Part shown: positions 14,681 to 28,036 of the stretch, piece after piece
How the letters are laid out: the number at the start of each line of letters is the position of its first letter
Numbering within the stretch: the first letter of the stretch is position 1
Assembly (NCBI RefSeq): GCF_024320785.1
Contig: NZ_JANDBC010000002.1
Span: forward strand, 434,001 to 498,000
Length of the DNA: 64,000 nucleotides
DNA from: Gracilimonas sediminicola
GTDB lineage: Bacteria > Bacteroidota > Rhodothermia > Balneolales > Balneolaceae
Direction of reading: 5' to 3'
Translations under genes and position numbers: made by a program
Notes under the pieces: generated by a model
What the model was told of the DNA's origin: nothing
Seen by the model: the letters and a program-made list of their open reading frames with translations, nothing else
The model's database searches: none

Positions 14681-17326
14681 TCATTTAATAAGCATCATTC
14701 TTCCTGTGAATTTTTTAGTCACATTGCTTCTCTCTCTTTTTAATACAGCCTGAACAAAGTATACTCCGCTAGCCAGACCATTCAGAGTAATTTTCTGAGA
14801 ATGACTTCCTGCCTCAAATACCCTTAAAGGCACACTCTTCACTTTCCTTCCCAATACATCAGTCACTTCCCAGCCCACGATTGCTTTCTCAATCAGAGTA
14901 AAAGGAACATTGGTAGTTGGGTTAAATGGGTTAGGATAGTTATTACCCAGAATAAACCCATTTGGGATATCTATACTCCATTCCATCTCATCCCGATATG
15001 TAGTTTTACCGTCCTGAGATTTATAACTATTTATAAAGGTGTACTGGCCATCGACCATAACCGGAAATTCAAATACTGCTTCATCCGTTGTTAGAGCTGT
15101 TAGGTCTCCTGCTCTAAAGCTTCCATCTGGCATATGGGCAACCATTTTAATTGAGGTCGTATCAAAATGAAATACTGGTTGTACGTATATCTTTACATTA
15201 TCAAAGCTATACTCAACGTCATTAATAGAGGAAATCTCTTGAATCTTTACTTCAGGGAGAACCACTCCCACTTCAATTGCCGGGTTCCAATTGTTTAGAG
15301 ATTTTCCACCGATCTCATGATTTGATAATGACTCCCATCCATATTGGAGGTCAGATTCTTTAGAATAAAAAGTGGCATTTTCATTTCCACGGTCAAGACC
15401 AAATGCTATAAAATTCTCATCATCTGAATCATTACTGAGAATGACCATAAGTGTATCCTGTACATCAGATAAATCATCATAAAGCTCAAAAAAGGAGAAA
15501 GCCTCTTCAACCAATCTACCTGCCTCTCTCTTAACCTCAATGTTTACAGGCTTTGTTATTGGCTTGTCTGGCTTATCTCCTTTTACATTGTAAATGAGTA
15601 TTTCAAAATCCCTCTCTGTGTCTCCATCAACTCCTGACCCTTCAAGCTCCGATTTAAATAGTGTCCAAAGCTTTATCTGTTTAAGCCAATAAGTAGATTC
15701 TTCCGGCGGGATGATTACAGCAAGCTTTTCATTAATACCATCCAACATCAAATAAGAAGCGTTTTGGAAAAATATATCAGGAGTGAAGTCTCCATAACTC
15801 CATTGCAGTTCTATTCCAGAAAGTGAGCCATCCCCGAGAAGACTAAAAGATGAAATATCAGAAGATTGTTCCTCTCCAAAATTAGAAACAATGATATCTA
15901 TACTACCAAATTCAGCATCCGTGGATTCAACCTTAATAGAAGATGATCTGAGTTTCTTAACCTCTTTCTCATCTGTTCCGGGGTAACTGGAAATTGAACT
16001 AAGCCATACATTATTCTGAAATTCTTGTCCGGTACTAAAATCAAGTTTTTTAGCTAATGAATAGTGTAATGGTAAGTTCACTAATTGAGGCAATTGACCA
16101 CTTAATACACCTGGCAAAGTTTGAAATTTGATTGCAGTTTCTAAAAACTGATTTTGTCTTAACTCATGTTTATAACCAAGCGTCGGGTTTTGATTATTGT
16201 CATTAAGAAGTAATGCTAACCCCCAATTTTGAAATACTTCCTCAAATACAAGTTCAGACTCAGCTTCTATTACACTTTGGTACCCTTTGATTCCTACTTC
16301 TTGGTTCTGAACAAACTCCTTCAGGCTTAGAGCTCCTAATTGTTCAATCAGATAATGCGTCCATAAAGATGCCCTTGAGTAATCTGGTAACGGGTTATCA
16401 TAGTTCCAACTTGTAAGCTTTCTGTAGGGACTTTTTTGAAAGGCGTCCGTTGATCTTGGTTCAAATCCACAAATGATTTCAACTGCTTCCGAATACCCTT
16501 CATTTACAAATACCAATTCAGGAGTATTTCCTTCATACCCTGCATGTATTAGATGTTGGCTCTCATGTGCAAATGTTGATAATGCCCTTTCTAAATAAAT
16601 TTCACCGTCATACAATAGAGTTGGAAACAGGTCTAAATATACGATGTCCCTAAAATTCGAGTATTCAAACTCGAATAAATTAACCGGATCAAAAAACCCG
16701 GCTACATAACTACCTGTCTGTTGGAATTCGTCATGTATATCCAGTAACAGTACATCCAACTCTCCGTCACCGTCAACATTAGGGAACTCTCCCACGTATT
16801 CCTCTAATATCTCTATTATGCCTTTTGAAGAATCAACTGAAAGTCTTGGTGTTCCTTCATGCAAATAGGAATCAAAGCCATTGAGGATTTTTTCCAAATC
16901 GTTTGATTTGCTAAGCGCATCATTCGCAGACTTCTCTATCCATAAACTAATCCCATTTCTATTATAGGTCTTAACAAAGATCTCTGAATACCATTTTTGA
17001 CCCGATAACGATAATAAGTCCCGAACGAAAAAGCTTTTCTCCTCACCAATTCCATATGTATATCTTCTGCTCTTTTGCTTGGTAAGCTTTTGCTTTGCCC
17101 TATAAAACTTACTCCTAATATCTTGATAGTAACTATCAGCAATAAACTTAGATGTGATTTCTACTTTGTTAAAATCAGTGTGGCCATAGTCATGCCTTAC
17201 CTCTTTCACATTACCCTTAAAATCTACCGCTTGTGCAACAACATTTATTTTTAAAGTAATATGAAGAGAAACGATTACAATAAGCCCTATTATATGCTTC
17301 CTTCTCTTCCCCATTTCTCTGACCAA
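14681..17326 (-). CDS. T9SS-sorted HEXXH zinc metalloprotease
   Basis: This 881-residue exported protein has an N-terminal signal (to about residue 33). A metalloprotease domain spans roughly residues 100-420 with the zinc motif HESQH at 254-258; E276 in NEGYSE, 18 residues later, is a likely third ligand as in gluzincins. The closest arrangement I recognise is the M30 (hyicolysin-like) type, but the family call is tentative. The middle is beta-rich. The last about 85 residues form a type IX secretion sorting domain, starting GNNYPNPFNPTT and with VTDVLGRKV and LASGVYFVQ, so the protein should be exported by T9SS and displayed or released. It heads the run of minus-strand envelope genes. Confidence 0.85.
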   Translation of the reverse strand: MVREMGKRRKHIIGLIVIVSLHITLKINVVAQAVDFKGNVKEVRHDYGHTDFNKVEITSKFIADSYYQDIRSKFYRAKQKLTKQKSRRYTYGIGEEKSFFVRDLLSLSGQKWYSEIFVKTYNRNGISLWIEKSANDALSKSNDLEKILNGFDSYLHEGTPRLSVDSSKGIIEILEEYVGEFPNVDGDGELDVLLLDIHDEFQQTGSYVAGFFDPVNLFEFEYSNFRDIVYLDLFPTLLYDGEIYLERALSTFAHESQHLIHAGYEGNTPELVFVNEGYSEAVEIICGFEPRSTDAFQKSPYRKLTSWNYDNPLPDYSRASLWTHYLIEQLGALSLKEFVQNQEVGIKGYQSVIEAESELVFEEVFQNWGLALLLNDNNQNPTLGYKHELRQNQFLETAIKFQTLPGVLSGQLPQLVNLPLHYSLAKKLDFSTGQEFQNNVWLSSISSYPGTDEKEVKKLRSSSIKVESTDAEFGSIDIIVSNFGEEQSSDISSFSLLGDGSLSGIELQWSYGDFTPDIFFQNASYLMLDGINEKLAVIIPPEESTYWLKQIKLWTLFKSELEGSGVDGDTERDFEILIYNVKGDKPDKPITKPVNIEVKREAGRLVEEAFSFFELYDDLSDVQDTLMVILSNDSDDENFIAFGLDRGNENATFYSKESDLQYGWESLSNHEIGGKSLNNWNPAIEVGVVLPEVKIQEISSINDVEYSFDNVKIYVQPVFHFDTTSIKMVAHMPDGSFRAGDLTALTTDEAVFEFPVMVDGQYTFINSYKSQDGKTTYRDEMEWSIDIPNGFILGNNYPNPFNPTTNVPFTLIEKAIVGWEVTDVLGRKVKSVPLRVFEAGSHSQKITLNGLASGVYFVQAVLKRERSNVTKKFTGRMMLIK

Positions 17327-24510: not shown

Positions 24511-25707
24511 ATGAGTCATAAGCCTACAATAACAGATTCTTTACAATTTCCAGCCGACAGCAAAGTTCCTCGTGCCCTATTCGGTGTTGGTGCCGTTGGC
24601 CTGATTGCCAGCCTTGTTGGCTACTTTTTGGATGCCGACCAGTTTTTCTTCTCGTACCTGGTTAGCTTTGTCTTTTTTACCGGTATTGCTTTAGCCGCCC
24701 TTTTGATGGTCATGCTGCACCATATCACCCGATCTTCATGGGGGGTATTGGTTCGAAGAATATCGGAGTCGTTTACGGCCAACCTTTGGATATGGGCCAT
24801 ATTTGTGGTCCCTGTAATACTTGGGATTCATAATTTGTACCACTGGAGCCATGAAGATGCCGTTATGGCCGACAAAATTCTTAAAGGGAAATCAGCTTAC
24901 CTGAATACACCCTTCTTTATTGCCCGTCAGTTTATCTACTTTGCCATCTGGGGATATCTTGGTTATAAACTGCATAAGGTTTCCGTAGAGATGGATAAAA
25001 CCAATGACTGGGGATTAACCAGCTTGTTGCGCAAAGTAAGTGCCCCGGGTATTCCTTTGTTTGCTCTTTCTATTGCATTTGCCAGCTTCGACTGGTTGAT
25101 GTCGCTTGACCCTCACTGGTTTTCAACCATGTTTGGCGTGTACTTTTTCTCTATCAGTTTCCAGGCTTTTTGGCCTATTATGATTCTGCTGATTTTCTTT
25201 ATGCAGAGCAAGGGGATTTTGAAAAACACCATTCGACAGGTGCACATCTATGATCTTGGTGCCTGGTTCTTTGCGTTCACAGTATTCTATGCATACATCG
25301 CATTCAGTCAGTTTTTACTTATTTATTATGCAAACCTTCCGGAAGAAACCCTGTGGTATTTCCATCGGCTGGAAGGCAGCTGGAAATATATTGCTTACGG
25401 CTTGTTGATCTTCCGTTTTGCGCTACCATTCCTGGTACTTCTTAATCGCGAAGCCAAGAAGAATCGCACTATTTTAGGAATTGTATCGGCAATCGTATTA
25501 ATTATTCACTTTGCAGAAATCTACTGGATTGCCATGCCGGTATTATTTAAACATGGCATCCACTTCAGCTGGATGGACATTACTACTTTCCTTGGATTAG
25601 GAGGCATTTTCTTTGGACTGTTCTTTAACAAATTCAAGCAGCACGATATGGTGCCGAAGAATGATCCAAAACTGGAAGACTGCCTATCCAAATCGTATCA
25701 CCAATAA
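24511..25707 (+). CDS. actF: Alternative complex III subunit F, NrfD-like membrane protein
   Basis: This 398-residue polytopic membrane protein (about ten helices) is related to ActC and the NrfD family. Features include HNLYHWSHEDAVM and FASFDWLMSLDPHW, the latter common in ActF. In ACIII structures ActF is the second NrfD-like subunit and has been proposed to take part in proton translocation. It starts 26 bp after actE. Its C-terminal soluble tail is short and charged. Confidence 0.94.
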   Translation: MSHKPTITDSLQFPADSKVPRALFGVGAVGLIASLVGYFLDADQFFFSYLVSFVFFTGIALAALLMVMLHHITRSSWGVLVRRISESFTANLWIWAIFVVPVILGIHNLYHWSHEDAVMADKILKGKSAYLNTPFFIARQFIYFAIWGYLGYKLHKVSVEMDKTNDWGLTSLLRKVSAPGIPLFALSIAFASFDWLMSLDPHWFSTMFGVYFFSISFQAFWPIMILLIFFMQSKGILKNTIRQVHIYDLGAWFFAFTVFYAYIAFSQFLLIYYANLPEETLWYFHRLEGSWKYIAYGLLIFRFALPFLVLLNREAKKNRTILGIVSAIVLIIHFAEIYWIAMPVLFKHGIHFSWMDITTFLGLGGIFFGLFFNKFKQHDMVPKNDPKLEDCLSKSYHQ

Positions 25708-25719
25708 TCGAATTTACCG

Positions 25720-26250
25720 ATGTCAGAAAAGTATAGCTCAGAATTTAAAGCAAAAGTAGCACTCGAAGCTGTAGCTCAGGGGCGTTCTGTGATTGAGAAA
25801 ATTGCTCAAAAACATGACGTTTCAGAAGATGATATAATTGAGTGGGCTGCTCAGCTTCAGGATGAAGCTTCTCAGATTTTTACCACCGAAACGGCACATG
25901 CCGACGAGGACGTAAACGAGGAAGTTGACATCACAACTGAAAATGAAGAGTTTGCCGGTGCCGTAGAACACGGCGTGATGAGTGACACCCTCAACTATAA
26001 CAAGTTGATCTTCTGGTCTACCCTGGGAACCGCACTCGTTATTATTTTTGTTATCGGTTTAGTCTATTTTTCTCAATACAGCCTTTTTGAAGCCCAAAAA
26101 CAGGTATCAGCCCAAAGCGGTTATTCAGAAGTACAAGAATTAAAAGCTGAACAAGATCAAGAGCTGAATAGCTTTGGAGTGGTGGACCTTGAGGAAGGTA
26201 TTTACAGAATTCCTATTGACAGCGCTATTAGTAGAATAGCCACAGACTGA
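25720..26250 (+). CDS. HTH (transposase OrfA-like) fused to a membrane anchor, in the act-cox operon
   Basis: The 176 residues show three parts. Residues 1-50 (YSSEFKAKVALEAVAQGRSV, then IAQKHDVSEDDIIEWAAQL) match the helix-turn-helix of IS3/IS911 OrfA-type proteins. An acidic linker follows to about 90. A single membrane helix lies at about 96-117, and a periplasmic tail ends in GIYRIPIDSAISRIATD. No transposase catalytic part or inverted repeats are present. It sits 12 bp after actF and 11 bp before the SCO gene, so it is co-transcribed. A membrane-anchored regulator or an assembly factor with a re-used HTH fold are both possible. Confidence 0.8.
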   Translation: MSEKYSSEFKAKVALEAVAQGRSVIEKIAQKHDVSEDDIIEWAAQLQDEASQIFTTETAHADEDVNEEVDITTENEEFAGAVEHGVMSDTLNYNKLIFWSTLGTALVIIFVIGLVYFSQYSLFEAQKQVSAQSGYSEVQELKAEQDQELNSFGVVDLEEGIYRIPIDSAISRIATD

Positions 26251-26261
26251 CACCAACCATC

Positions 26262-27092
26262 ATGAGACGTTCTACACTGTTAGCAATTATCATGCTTGCA
26301 GTGTTTCTGACTTCACATTCTGCCCAAGCGCAGGTAAATCGTGAAACGCCGGATGCGCTGCAAGATCTCGGTATTGATGAGCATTTGGGAGACTACATCC
26401 CTCTTGATGCCAAGTTTGCAACCTCCGAAGGTGACAGTGTTGTGCTTGGTGATTTACTGGAGGAAGGAAAACCTGTTTTATTGAACCCGCTCTACTACGA
26501 ATGCCCGATGTTATGCGGGCTTGTGATAGACGGAGTGATTAATGTTGTTGATGAACTGGCCTGGAAGCCCGGTAAAGAATTTATTGTAATCTCGATCAGC
26601 ATTGACCCTGAGGAAAATGCTGAACTGGCAGCTAAGTCGAAAAAAAATTACCTGGCCGGTATGGACTCCACCACAAAAGCAGGGTGGCACTTCCTAACCG
26701 GAAAGAAAGATCAGATTGACAAAGTAATTGAAGCTGTTGGATTTGAATACAAAGAAATTGAGAAAACCGGAGAGTTTGCCCATAGTGCGGCAATCATGCT
26801 CCTGAGTCCACAAGGCAAGATTACCCGTTATTTGTACGGCATCTCCTACGACTCATTCAATGTTCGCAGTGCCTTGTATGAATCTGCGGACGGAACGATT
26901 GGTAACACCGTCGATAAACTTGTGATGTACTGTTATCAATACGATCCGGATTCCGGCAGTTATGCGCCGGTAGCAATTAATATTATGAAGCTTGGCGGCT
27001 TGGCTACACTGATAATTCTCGGTATATTCCTCGGCGTGCTTTGGCTTCGCGAAAAACGCAAAAAACCAACCTCAAAAACTGAATTTAACTAA
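26262..27092 (+). CDS. SCO1/SenC-family copper chaperone
   Basis: This 276-residue protein has a signal peptide (to about residue 24), a thioredoxin-fold SCO domain and a C-terminal membrane helix (about 245-262). The copper site is visible as CPMLC (C81, C85) and a downstream His in FAHSAAI (H174). SCO proteins load or reduce the CuA centre of cytochrome oxidase subunit II, and coxB follows directly, overlapping by one base. A C-terminal anchor instead of an N-terminal one is a common variant in this group. Confidence 0.93.
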   Translation: MRRSTLLAIIMLAVFLTSHSAQAQVNRETPDALQDLGIDEHLGDYIPLDAKFATSEGDSVVLGDLLEEGKPVLLNPLYYECPMLCGLVIDGVINVVDELAWKPGKEFIVISISIDPEENAELAAKSKKNYLAGMDSTTKAGWHFLTGKKDQIDKVIEAVGFEYKEIEKTGEFAHSAAIMLLSPQGKITRYLYGISYDSFNVRSALYESADGTIGNTVDKLVMYCYQYDPDSGSYAPVAINIMKLGGLATLIILGIFLGVLWLREKRKKPTSKTEFN

Positions 27093-28036
27093 TGGGCAGT
27101 TTATTCGATTTTATGCTCCCGGAGCTTAAATCTCCGATGACGGGAGCAAGTACCGATGCGCTGATGGCATTCATCCACATCGTCAGTTTTATCATTCTTG
27201 CCGGTGTCTCCATTGCAATGATCTATTTTGCAATTAAGTACAAGCGCAAATCAGAAAATGATAAAACACCGCTTATCACCCACAACAACACCCTGGAAAT
27301 TACCTGGTCGGTAATACCCCTTCTGCTGGTTTTTGTTGTTTTTGGATGGGGATACAAAGGATGGCTGAATCTCAAAACCGTACCGGATAACGCATATGAA
27401 ATTCAGGTTTCAGCCTACAAGTGGGGCTGGACTTTCAAATATGAAACCGGAGCACAGGTTGGTAACGAAGTTCATGTACCTGCAGGTCGGCCGGTTAAAT
27501 TGGTGATGCAATCTCAGGACGTACTACACTCCTTTTTTGTACCTGATTACCGAATCAAGCAAGACGTGCTGCCAAACCGATACACCTATGTTTGGTTCCA
27601 GGCTGAAGAAGCCGGTGAATCACAGGTTTTCTGTACCGAATATTGCGGTACCTCCCACTCTGATATGTTGGCTAAAGTAATTGTGCACACCGAAGAAGAC
27701 TTTAAAGCCTGGCTGGATGAGCAAGGAACCGGCGGTGGCGGAACTCCCGTGGAACGCGGTGAGCAACTTGCCACCTTACAAGGTTGTGTAAGCTGTCACT
27801 CTGTAGATGGATCTGATGGTATTGGACCTACCTGGCAGGGCCTGTGGGAGCAAGAACGTAATTTCGAAGACGGTTCTTCCGAAGTTGCCGATCAAAACTA
27901 TATCAGAGAATCCATTCTCGACCCCGGCAGCAAAATTGTTGAAGGATATCAAAACCAAATGGTTAGCTATGAGGGTCGCCTTAGTGACGACGACATCTCC
28001 GACATTATTGAATACATTAAAACGTTAGAAGAATAA
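27092..28036 (+). CDS. coxB: caa3 oxidase subunit II with fused cytochrome c
   Basis: This 314-residue protein has two N-terminal membrane helices and a cupredoxin domain with the CuA ligand set ([12 protein letters not shown], with an upstream His in VLHSFF). A C-terminal cytochrome c domain carries CVSCH (C232-H236) and a probable axial Met in NQMVSYEG. This makes the enzyme a caa3-type oxidase that receives electrons on its own cytochrome domain. That domain resembles the second domain of ActE encoded in the same operon. The gene overlaps the SCO stop codon by one base. Confidence 0.95.

Follow-up and report, generated by a model that had tools for sequence, protein, structure and literature searches.

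The stretch of Gracilimonas sediminicola DNA analyzed here, 64,000 nucleotides in length and referred to below as the window, encodes at positions 25720..26250 (+ strand) a protein of 176 aa with an ATG start that, judged by homology and synteny, is an orthologue of ActG, a subunit of alternative complex III (ACIII), extended at its N-terminus by a domesticated helix-turn-helix (HTH) domain. We consider the orthology of the transmembrane (TM) helix and tail to ActG very probable from the sequence comparisons described below, and we give about an even chance to a reading in which the added HTH, probably non-DNA-binding, is used as a docking or self-association module. In the open-licence literature we found no paper on an ActG with a helix-turn-helix (searched together with alternative complex III), and none on alternative complex III in Balneolaceae or Balneolales; the HTH-bearing version of this known ACIII subunit is new.

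Operon slot and ActG core

The preliminary description of this DNA had the ORF locked between actF and sco with gaps of 11–12 bp, and this placement is correct both in the window and across the order. The upstream neighbor actF (24511..25707, +; PDB 6f0k_F, the R. marinus ActF, E 5.3e-104) has its stop at 25707, 12 nt before the ORF, and the ATG of sco (26262..27092, +; SCO1/SenC, E 2.8e-11) lies 11 nt beyond it at 26262. The next gene, coxB (27092..28036, +), is of the caa3 type, since Pfam identifies a fused cytochrome c domain in its product. Searching the order with the whole protein gave a match at E ≤ 0.01 in 115 of 128 genomes; one of these holds an OrfA-like ORF alone (G084) and another a 39-aa fragment at the edge of its contig (G036), and from the remaining 113 genomes we extracted 114 loci. 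All 114 have actF upstream and 113 have sco downstream, the single exception (L102) being a locus whose contig stops before that point. Across these order loci the HTH ORF was found in no orfB or insertion-sequence context, its neighbors being actF and sco instead. Outside the order, the ActG match lay between actF and either sco or coxB in 20 of 20 class loci, which were picked among the stronger matches of a class-wide search with the core profile A1. An ORF of 881 aa (window 14681-17326, −) adjoins the act operon on the opposite strand; its C-terminus resembles what we take to be a secretion-sorting domain.

Several comparisons point to ActG as the identity of the TM helix and tail. Profile A1, built from 46 sequences of the order, matched 220 of 244 class genomes, and its match in the Rhodothermus-like genome G168 had an E of 1.8e-18; the ActF of that genome (locus L180) aligns almost residue-for-residue with R. 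marinus 6f0k_F (E 4.5e-273). In a sample of 296 genomes from the phylum, 82 matched at E ≤ 0.001, 72 of these in this class. The match to PDB 8k9e_G, a chain named ActG and presumably that of Chloroflexus aurantiacus, was modest (E 0.19 with A1 and 0.0037 with the broader profile A4) and fell on the conserved signature, the A1 alignment covering LNSyG...G..IPID.A. Designed repeat proteins (6een_B, 6een_A and 4ozs_A) outscored 8k9e_G in the PDB search with A4; viewing of the alignments showed the scores of 6een_B and 6een_A to be the sum of eight matches of 2–3 bits each. A PDB search with the single window protein gave no match at E ≤ 10, and Pfam scans of the 46 core sequences returned scattered matches, with no family found in more than 4 of the 46 members at E ≤ 0.01.

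The ActG signature of the window protein, LNSFGVVDLEEGIYRIPIDSAI (26164..26229, +; residues 149-170), aligns with 8k9e_G and would be periplasmic; in consensus notation it is LNSfGvvD..eg.YrIPID.A. The motif IYRIPIDSAI, with which the tail had been said to end, is indeed present but lies only near the end, as the protein closes with ...IYRIPIDSAISRIATD. The core of the single TM helix (26008..26064, +; residues 97-115) is the best hydrophobic stretch of the protein and falls within a model helix spanning residues 93-151. The best 19-residue hydropathy was at least 1.93 in 113 of 113 aligned rows, which indicates a single TM helix, and the model has one long helix. Counts of K/R were higher on the N-terminal than on the C-terminal side in 66 of the 113 rows, equal in 34 and lower in 13, a weak positive-inside bias that is absent in the 14 FN3-type proteins described below (5, 5 and 4, respectively, N>C, equal and N<C). 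This bias and the long hydrophilic N-terminus suggest an N-in topology in which the HTH faces the cytoplasm; the ActG tail would then lie in the periplasm, with the TM helix and tail sitting with ACIII in Gracilimonas.

Among the subunits of ACIII, ActG is the one understood least. R. marinus ActG is reported to co-purify with ACIII and to be seen by mass spectrometry, yet without density (PMC5928083), and in Melioribacter actG is reported as not found (PMC3534657). The window protein shares with the ActG of R. marinus and 8k9e_G its place in the act cluster, a single TM helix and the C-terminal L.s.G...G..(r)IPID.A signature, but differs in its N-terminal HTH and acidic linker; L180 and L182, the Rhodothermus-like loci, lack both, as does 8k9e_G, judged by its chain length of 112. 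Some genomes hold two actG loci, namely G057 (L102 and L103, plus a piece on contig C52) and G150 (profile matches on contigs C197 and C188).

Fold and DNA-facing residues of the N-terminal domain

The architecture first proposed for the protein, an OrfA-like HTH followed by an acidic linker, one membrane helix and a tail, was borne out. Pfam assigns residues 3-52 (25726..25875, +) to HTH_Tnp_1 (PF01527) with 29.9 bits against a curated cut-off of 24.1 (E 6.6e-7), and the structure model and fold alignment agree with this assignment; the linker occupies residues 53-84 (25876..25971, +) and contains 11 D/E and no K/R, and the helix runs from residue 97. When HTH-bearing homologues were scanned singly, HTH_Tnp_1 was found at E ≤ 0.01 in 33 of 51, with 18 falling short. 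A chance HTH match is ruled out by the Pfam score of the window protein together with these 33 homologues. The NCBIfam families IS66 TnpA (E 1e-5) and, more weakly, IS3 transposase (E 0.0013) were matched with scores below their cut-offs, and no NCBIfam family exceeded its cut-off in the five proteins tried. In the genome of the window, ActG itself is the single protein that scores above the PF01527 cut-off, and two further matches are weak. Recent insertion-sequence debris was likewise considered and is ruled out, the fusion being kept in 72 rows of the alignment.

Structure prediction, which had been put forward as a check on the HTH, yielded a model with the expected fold. The AlphaFold model (51 sequences) has a mean pLDDT of 72.3 and a pTM of 0.29, with block values of 83-87 for residues 11-50 and only 58 for residues 51-60; its N-terminal domain consists of helices at residues 7-20, 22-32 and 36-58. 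With this model as the query, Foldseek found nothing in the PDB at E ≤ 0.001. VIA-align of residues 1-62 returned HTH-like folds, among them 2rn7 (TnpE; Z 6.6, rmsd 3.0, 54 aligned), although many unrelated HTH and homeodomain rows tie with 2rn7 and a Z of about 6 cannot discriminate between HTH folds.

We then compared the ActG HTHs with 26 OrfA-type HTHs of the same order, a non-random sample drawn from the 30 best-scoring loci, 4 of which were left out because of stops in the excised stretch. In the recognition-helix region around Trp42 (25828..25866, +; approximately residues 37-49), most positions that are basic in OrfA-type domains are acidic or neutral in the window protein. K/R occurs at Trp+1 in 0 of 72 ActG HTHs versus 22 of 26 OrfA-type domains, and D/E at Trp+3 in 51 of 72 versus 5 of 26; K/R at Trp+2 has a similar frequency in the two sets (26/72 and 8/26), so part of the ActG family retains a basic residue there. 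The median net charge was −3 (−8 to 3) for the ActG domains compared with +2 (−1 to 4) for OrfA-type domains, and −2 (−5 to 2) compared with +2 (0 to 5) for the recognition helix, with the caveat that the p-values of these charge comparisons ignore relatedness. Packing positions are kept, with Trp42 in 70 of 72 rows and I/V/L at Trp-3 and Trp-8 in all 72; Lys10 and Ala17 are each found in 70 of 72. Several exposed positions of the recognition helix vary, whereas core positions are fixed.

Values of dN/dS for the HTH in four groups were 0.11, 0.33, 0.08 and 0.23; the TM helix and tail gave 0.11, 0.16, 0.07 and 0.12, approximately half the HTH value in two of the four. The groups contained 6, 11, 5 and 16 pairs, with dS high in places, and the first comprised eight rows of the window's genus and G091. 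Taken together, the residue and dN/dS data suggest that the fold is constrained and the OrfA-type DNA surface is not, the HTH being somewhat looser in two groups. The alignments thus show a domain that has kept its HTH core and, as far as residue identities can indicate, has lost the OrfA-type DNA-contact residues. It resembles HTH_Tnp_1, IS3 OrfA and IS66 TnpA in having an HTH with a conserved Trp and a Pfam score above the cut-off, but differs from IS3 OrfA and IS66 TnpA in its apparent lack of the DNA-contact residues, its fusion to a membrane subunit and its retention across a family.

Gain and loss at the ActG N-terminus

The distribution of the HTH was assessed on an alignment of 113 rows from 112 genomes (G057 is represented twice and L120 was dropped), a row being counted as HTH-bearing when 45 or more of its residues fall in the HTH block; by this measure the domain is present in 72 rows and absent in 41. 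A search for the same fusion in relatives had been suggested, and it is found in 72 of the 84 rows of the window's own family f1 but in none of the 29 rows of the sister families f2-f5. Family f1 (Gracilimonas and kin) is taken here as Balneolaceae; locus L003 places in Balneolaceae, Balneolota, and the named Gracilimonas-type loci L002 and L003 have 75% and 70% identity to the window protein. The culturable relative Gracilimonas mengyeensis DSM 21985 also bears the HTH. The f1 rows that lack the HTH are G021, G027, G033, G035, G038, G039, G040, G074, G081, G082, G085 and G086. The preliminary description had named homologues in the same operons without the HTH part as evidence that would count against it, and the 41 rows are homologues of this kind. 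They include two congeners, G021 and G027, in which a DNA alignment shows the start and approximately 12 HTH codons followed by a 126-column in-frame gap that extends into the linker. This gap is a deletion scar and marks one loss of the HTH, and these natural deletions are a ready comparison for the role of the domain.

In a FastTree phylogeny of ActF and Sco, with 15 class rows as the outgroup, the f1 branch has a support of 100 and the HTH label needs 5 changes, although change counts on a tree cannot separate gain from loss. The tree suggests a probable single gain of the HTH, close to the base of f1, with several later losses; if a single gain is assumed, three or more losses are required, and the HTH is therefore dispensable. 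Several independent gains are not favored. The HTH tree is poorly resolved (63 columns, with 12 of 96 inner branches starred); in it, the rows nearest to G031 and G032, which are nested among HTH-less rows, are ActG HTHs and not OrfA, and this favors losses over regain.

Elsewhere in the class, a different domain is found at the same terminus. Among the 20 loci examined from other orders of the class, 14 carry an N-terminal domain of approximately 100 residues in place of the HTH (set A3, including L173, L172, L166, L179, L181, L183 and eight more), and the remaining six, among them both Rhodothermus-type loci (L180 and L182, family f16), have no such domain. The model of the first A3 row is a beta sandwich at residues 11-100 with block pLDDT of 88-93, and Foldseek with this model returned FN3 domains (best E 8.6e-6, with 131 matches at E ≤ 0.001). 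Pfam fn3 was marginal on these extensions (one of five proteins, E 0.043), and the FN3-like assignment is made on the basis of the model and Foldseek. The presence of two unrelated small domains at one end of ActG suggests that this is a place for accessory contacts, and the acquisition of at least two such domains provides a testable handle on the role of ActG.

Possible roles of the HTH domain

The explanation that we favor is that approximately 60 residues resembling IS3-OrfA/IS66-TnpA-type transposase proteins were added to the N-terminus of ActG, which would be anchored to ACIII through its TM helix and tail, and that the HTH would serve for docking or self-association on the cytoplasmic face of ACIII, in the manner of RodZ. 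The retention of the core together with the loss of DNA-contact residues makes a small protein-docking or self-association domain the most likely identity of the HTH. The cytoplasmic HTH of RodZ is reported to make contacts with MreB and with itself and not with DNA (PMC6946637), and RodZ shares with the window protein the order of a cytoplasmic HTH, one TM helix and a periplasmic tail. RodZ, however, has an XRE-family HTH, a basic linker and a role in cell shape (PMC6946637); Pfam places the window domain in HTH_Tnp_1 and not in the XRE/Cro type, and no homology between the two proteins is demonstrated. By analogy, the HTH of the window ActG may be used for protein contacts as in RodZ. It is thus likely that the DNA-binding fold of a transposase was recruited here into an energy-converting complex after loss of its DNA face, and the earlier suggestion of an exapted assembly factor survives in the form of a respiratory subunit to which an accessory module has been added.

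One may postulate alternative scenarios. The HTH may be a neutral passenger, an old in-frame fusion that is harmless and has no selected function; its repeated loss, its absence from 29 of 29 sister-family rows and the drift of many exposed residues agree with this, but 72 of 84 family rows retain it, its core is fixed (Lys10, Ala17 and Trp42 each in 70 of 72), and its dN/dS of 0.08–0.33 is close to the low value of the TM helix and tail in two of the four groups. We regard a passenger as unlikely on these grounds. A role in biogenesis only, in which the HTH has no lasting partner and sets either the assembly of ACIII-caa3 or how ActG is translated, inserted or kept in stoichiometry, would fit a gene that adjoins sco and cox genes, and also the finding that other class families have an unrelated FN3-like domain in this position; such a role would not need a specific fold, yet the core is conserved, and we consider it distinctly improbable.

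The preliminary description had also raised the possibility of a redox-linked membrane regulator, but a reading of the whole protein as a novel DNA-binding regulator is not supported. A membrane-tethered regulator of the ToxR/CadC kind, in which ActG senses the periplasmic redox or assembly state and its cytoplasmic HTH binds DNA, is consistent with the architecture (HTH, one TM helix and tail), with the match to the DNA-binding family HTH_Tnp_1, with the HTH fold of the predicted model and with the 26 of 72 rows that have K/R at Trp+2. The known subunit ActG accounts for the TM helix and tail, however, and the OrfA-type DNA-facing residues are mostly neutral or acidic, with K/R at Trp+1 in 0 of 72 rows, D/E at Trp+3 in 51 of 72 and a median domain charge of −3 compared with +2 for the 26 OrfA-type domains; moreover, exposed recognition-helix positions vary over a fixed core, and the HTH has been lost while the operon stays. 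The residue and charge evidence disfavors this reading, which we set aside as the leading one and judge to be very unlikely. The one-component regulators ToxR and CadC have a like domain order and a winged HTH, Trans_reg_C, whereas none of the nine Pfam families that match the window protein at E ≤ 1 is Trans_reg_C. The likeness is one of domain order; the window protein differs in having an HTH_Tnp_1 domain that has not kept the OrfA-type DNA face.

A broader version of the docking reading, to which we assign only a slim chance, treats the N-terminal cytoplasmic end of ActG as a plug-in site for unrelated interaction domains (the transposase HTH in Balneolaceae, the FN3-like domain in other class families) that tie the ACIII-caa3 supercomplex to cytoplasmic partners specific to each lineage. 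For Balneolaceae, one candidate partner would be a soluble protein with the same domesticated HTH, for example an HTH-PAS sensor kinase, and the respiratory complex would in that case be part of a signalling assembly. Any link of HTH-PAS kinases to ActG is speculation.

Similar HTH-like domains were seen elsewhere in the genomes searched. A sensor kinase in G034 (L216:2552-4534, +) has a similar N-terminal HTH fused to a PAS kinase, with PAS, HisKA_2 and HATPase_c over the Pfam cut-offs and HTH_28 and HTH_Tnp_1 under them, and a kinase in G074 (L217:971-2950, −) is of like build, judged by eye. The HTH profile A5 gave 1.4e-10 for G074 and 2.1e-12 for the best OrfA-type ORF; L216 is a member of A5, which biases the score it obtains. 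These two HTH-kinase fusions were the only ones seen among the A5 matches, which came from 92 genomes. Two apparently identical ORFs of 723 aa in G040 (L218:2287-4458, −, and L221:2471-4642, −), RecQ-like by eye, each have a weak HTH_Tnp_1-like stretch; they lie near opposite ends of one 3.75-Mb contig, and the pair is either a duplication or the product of overlapping contig ends.
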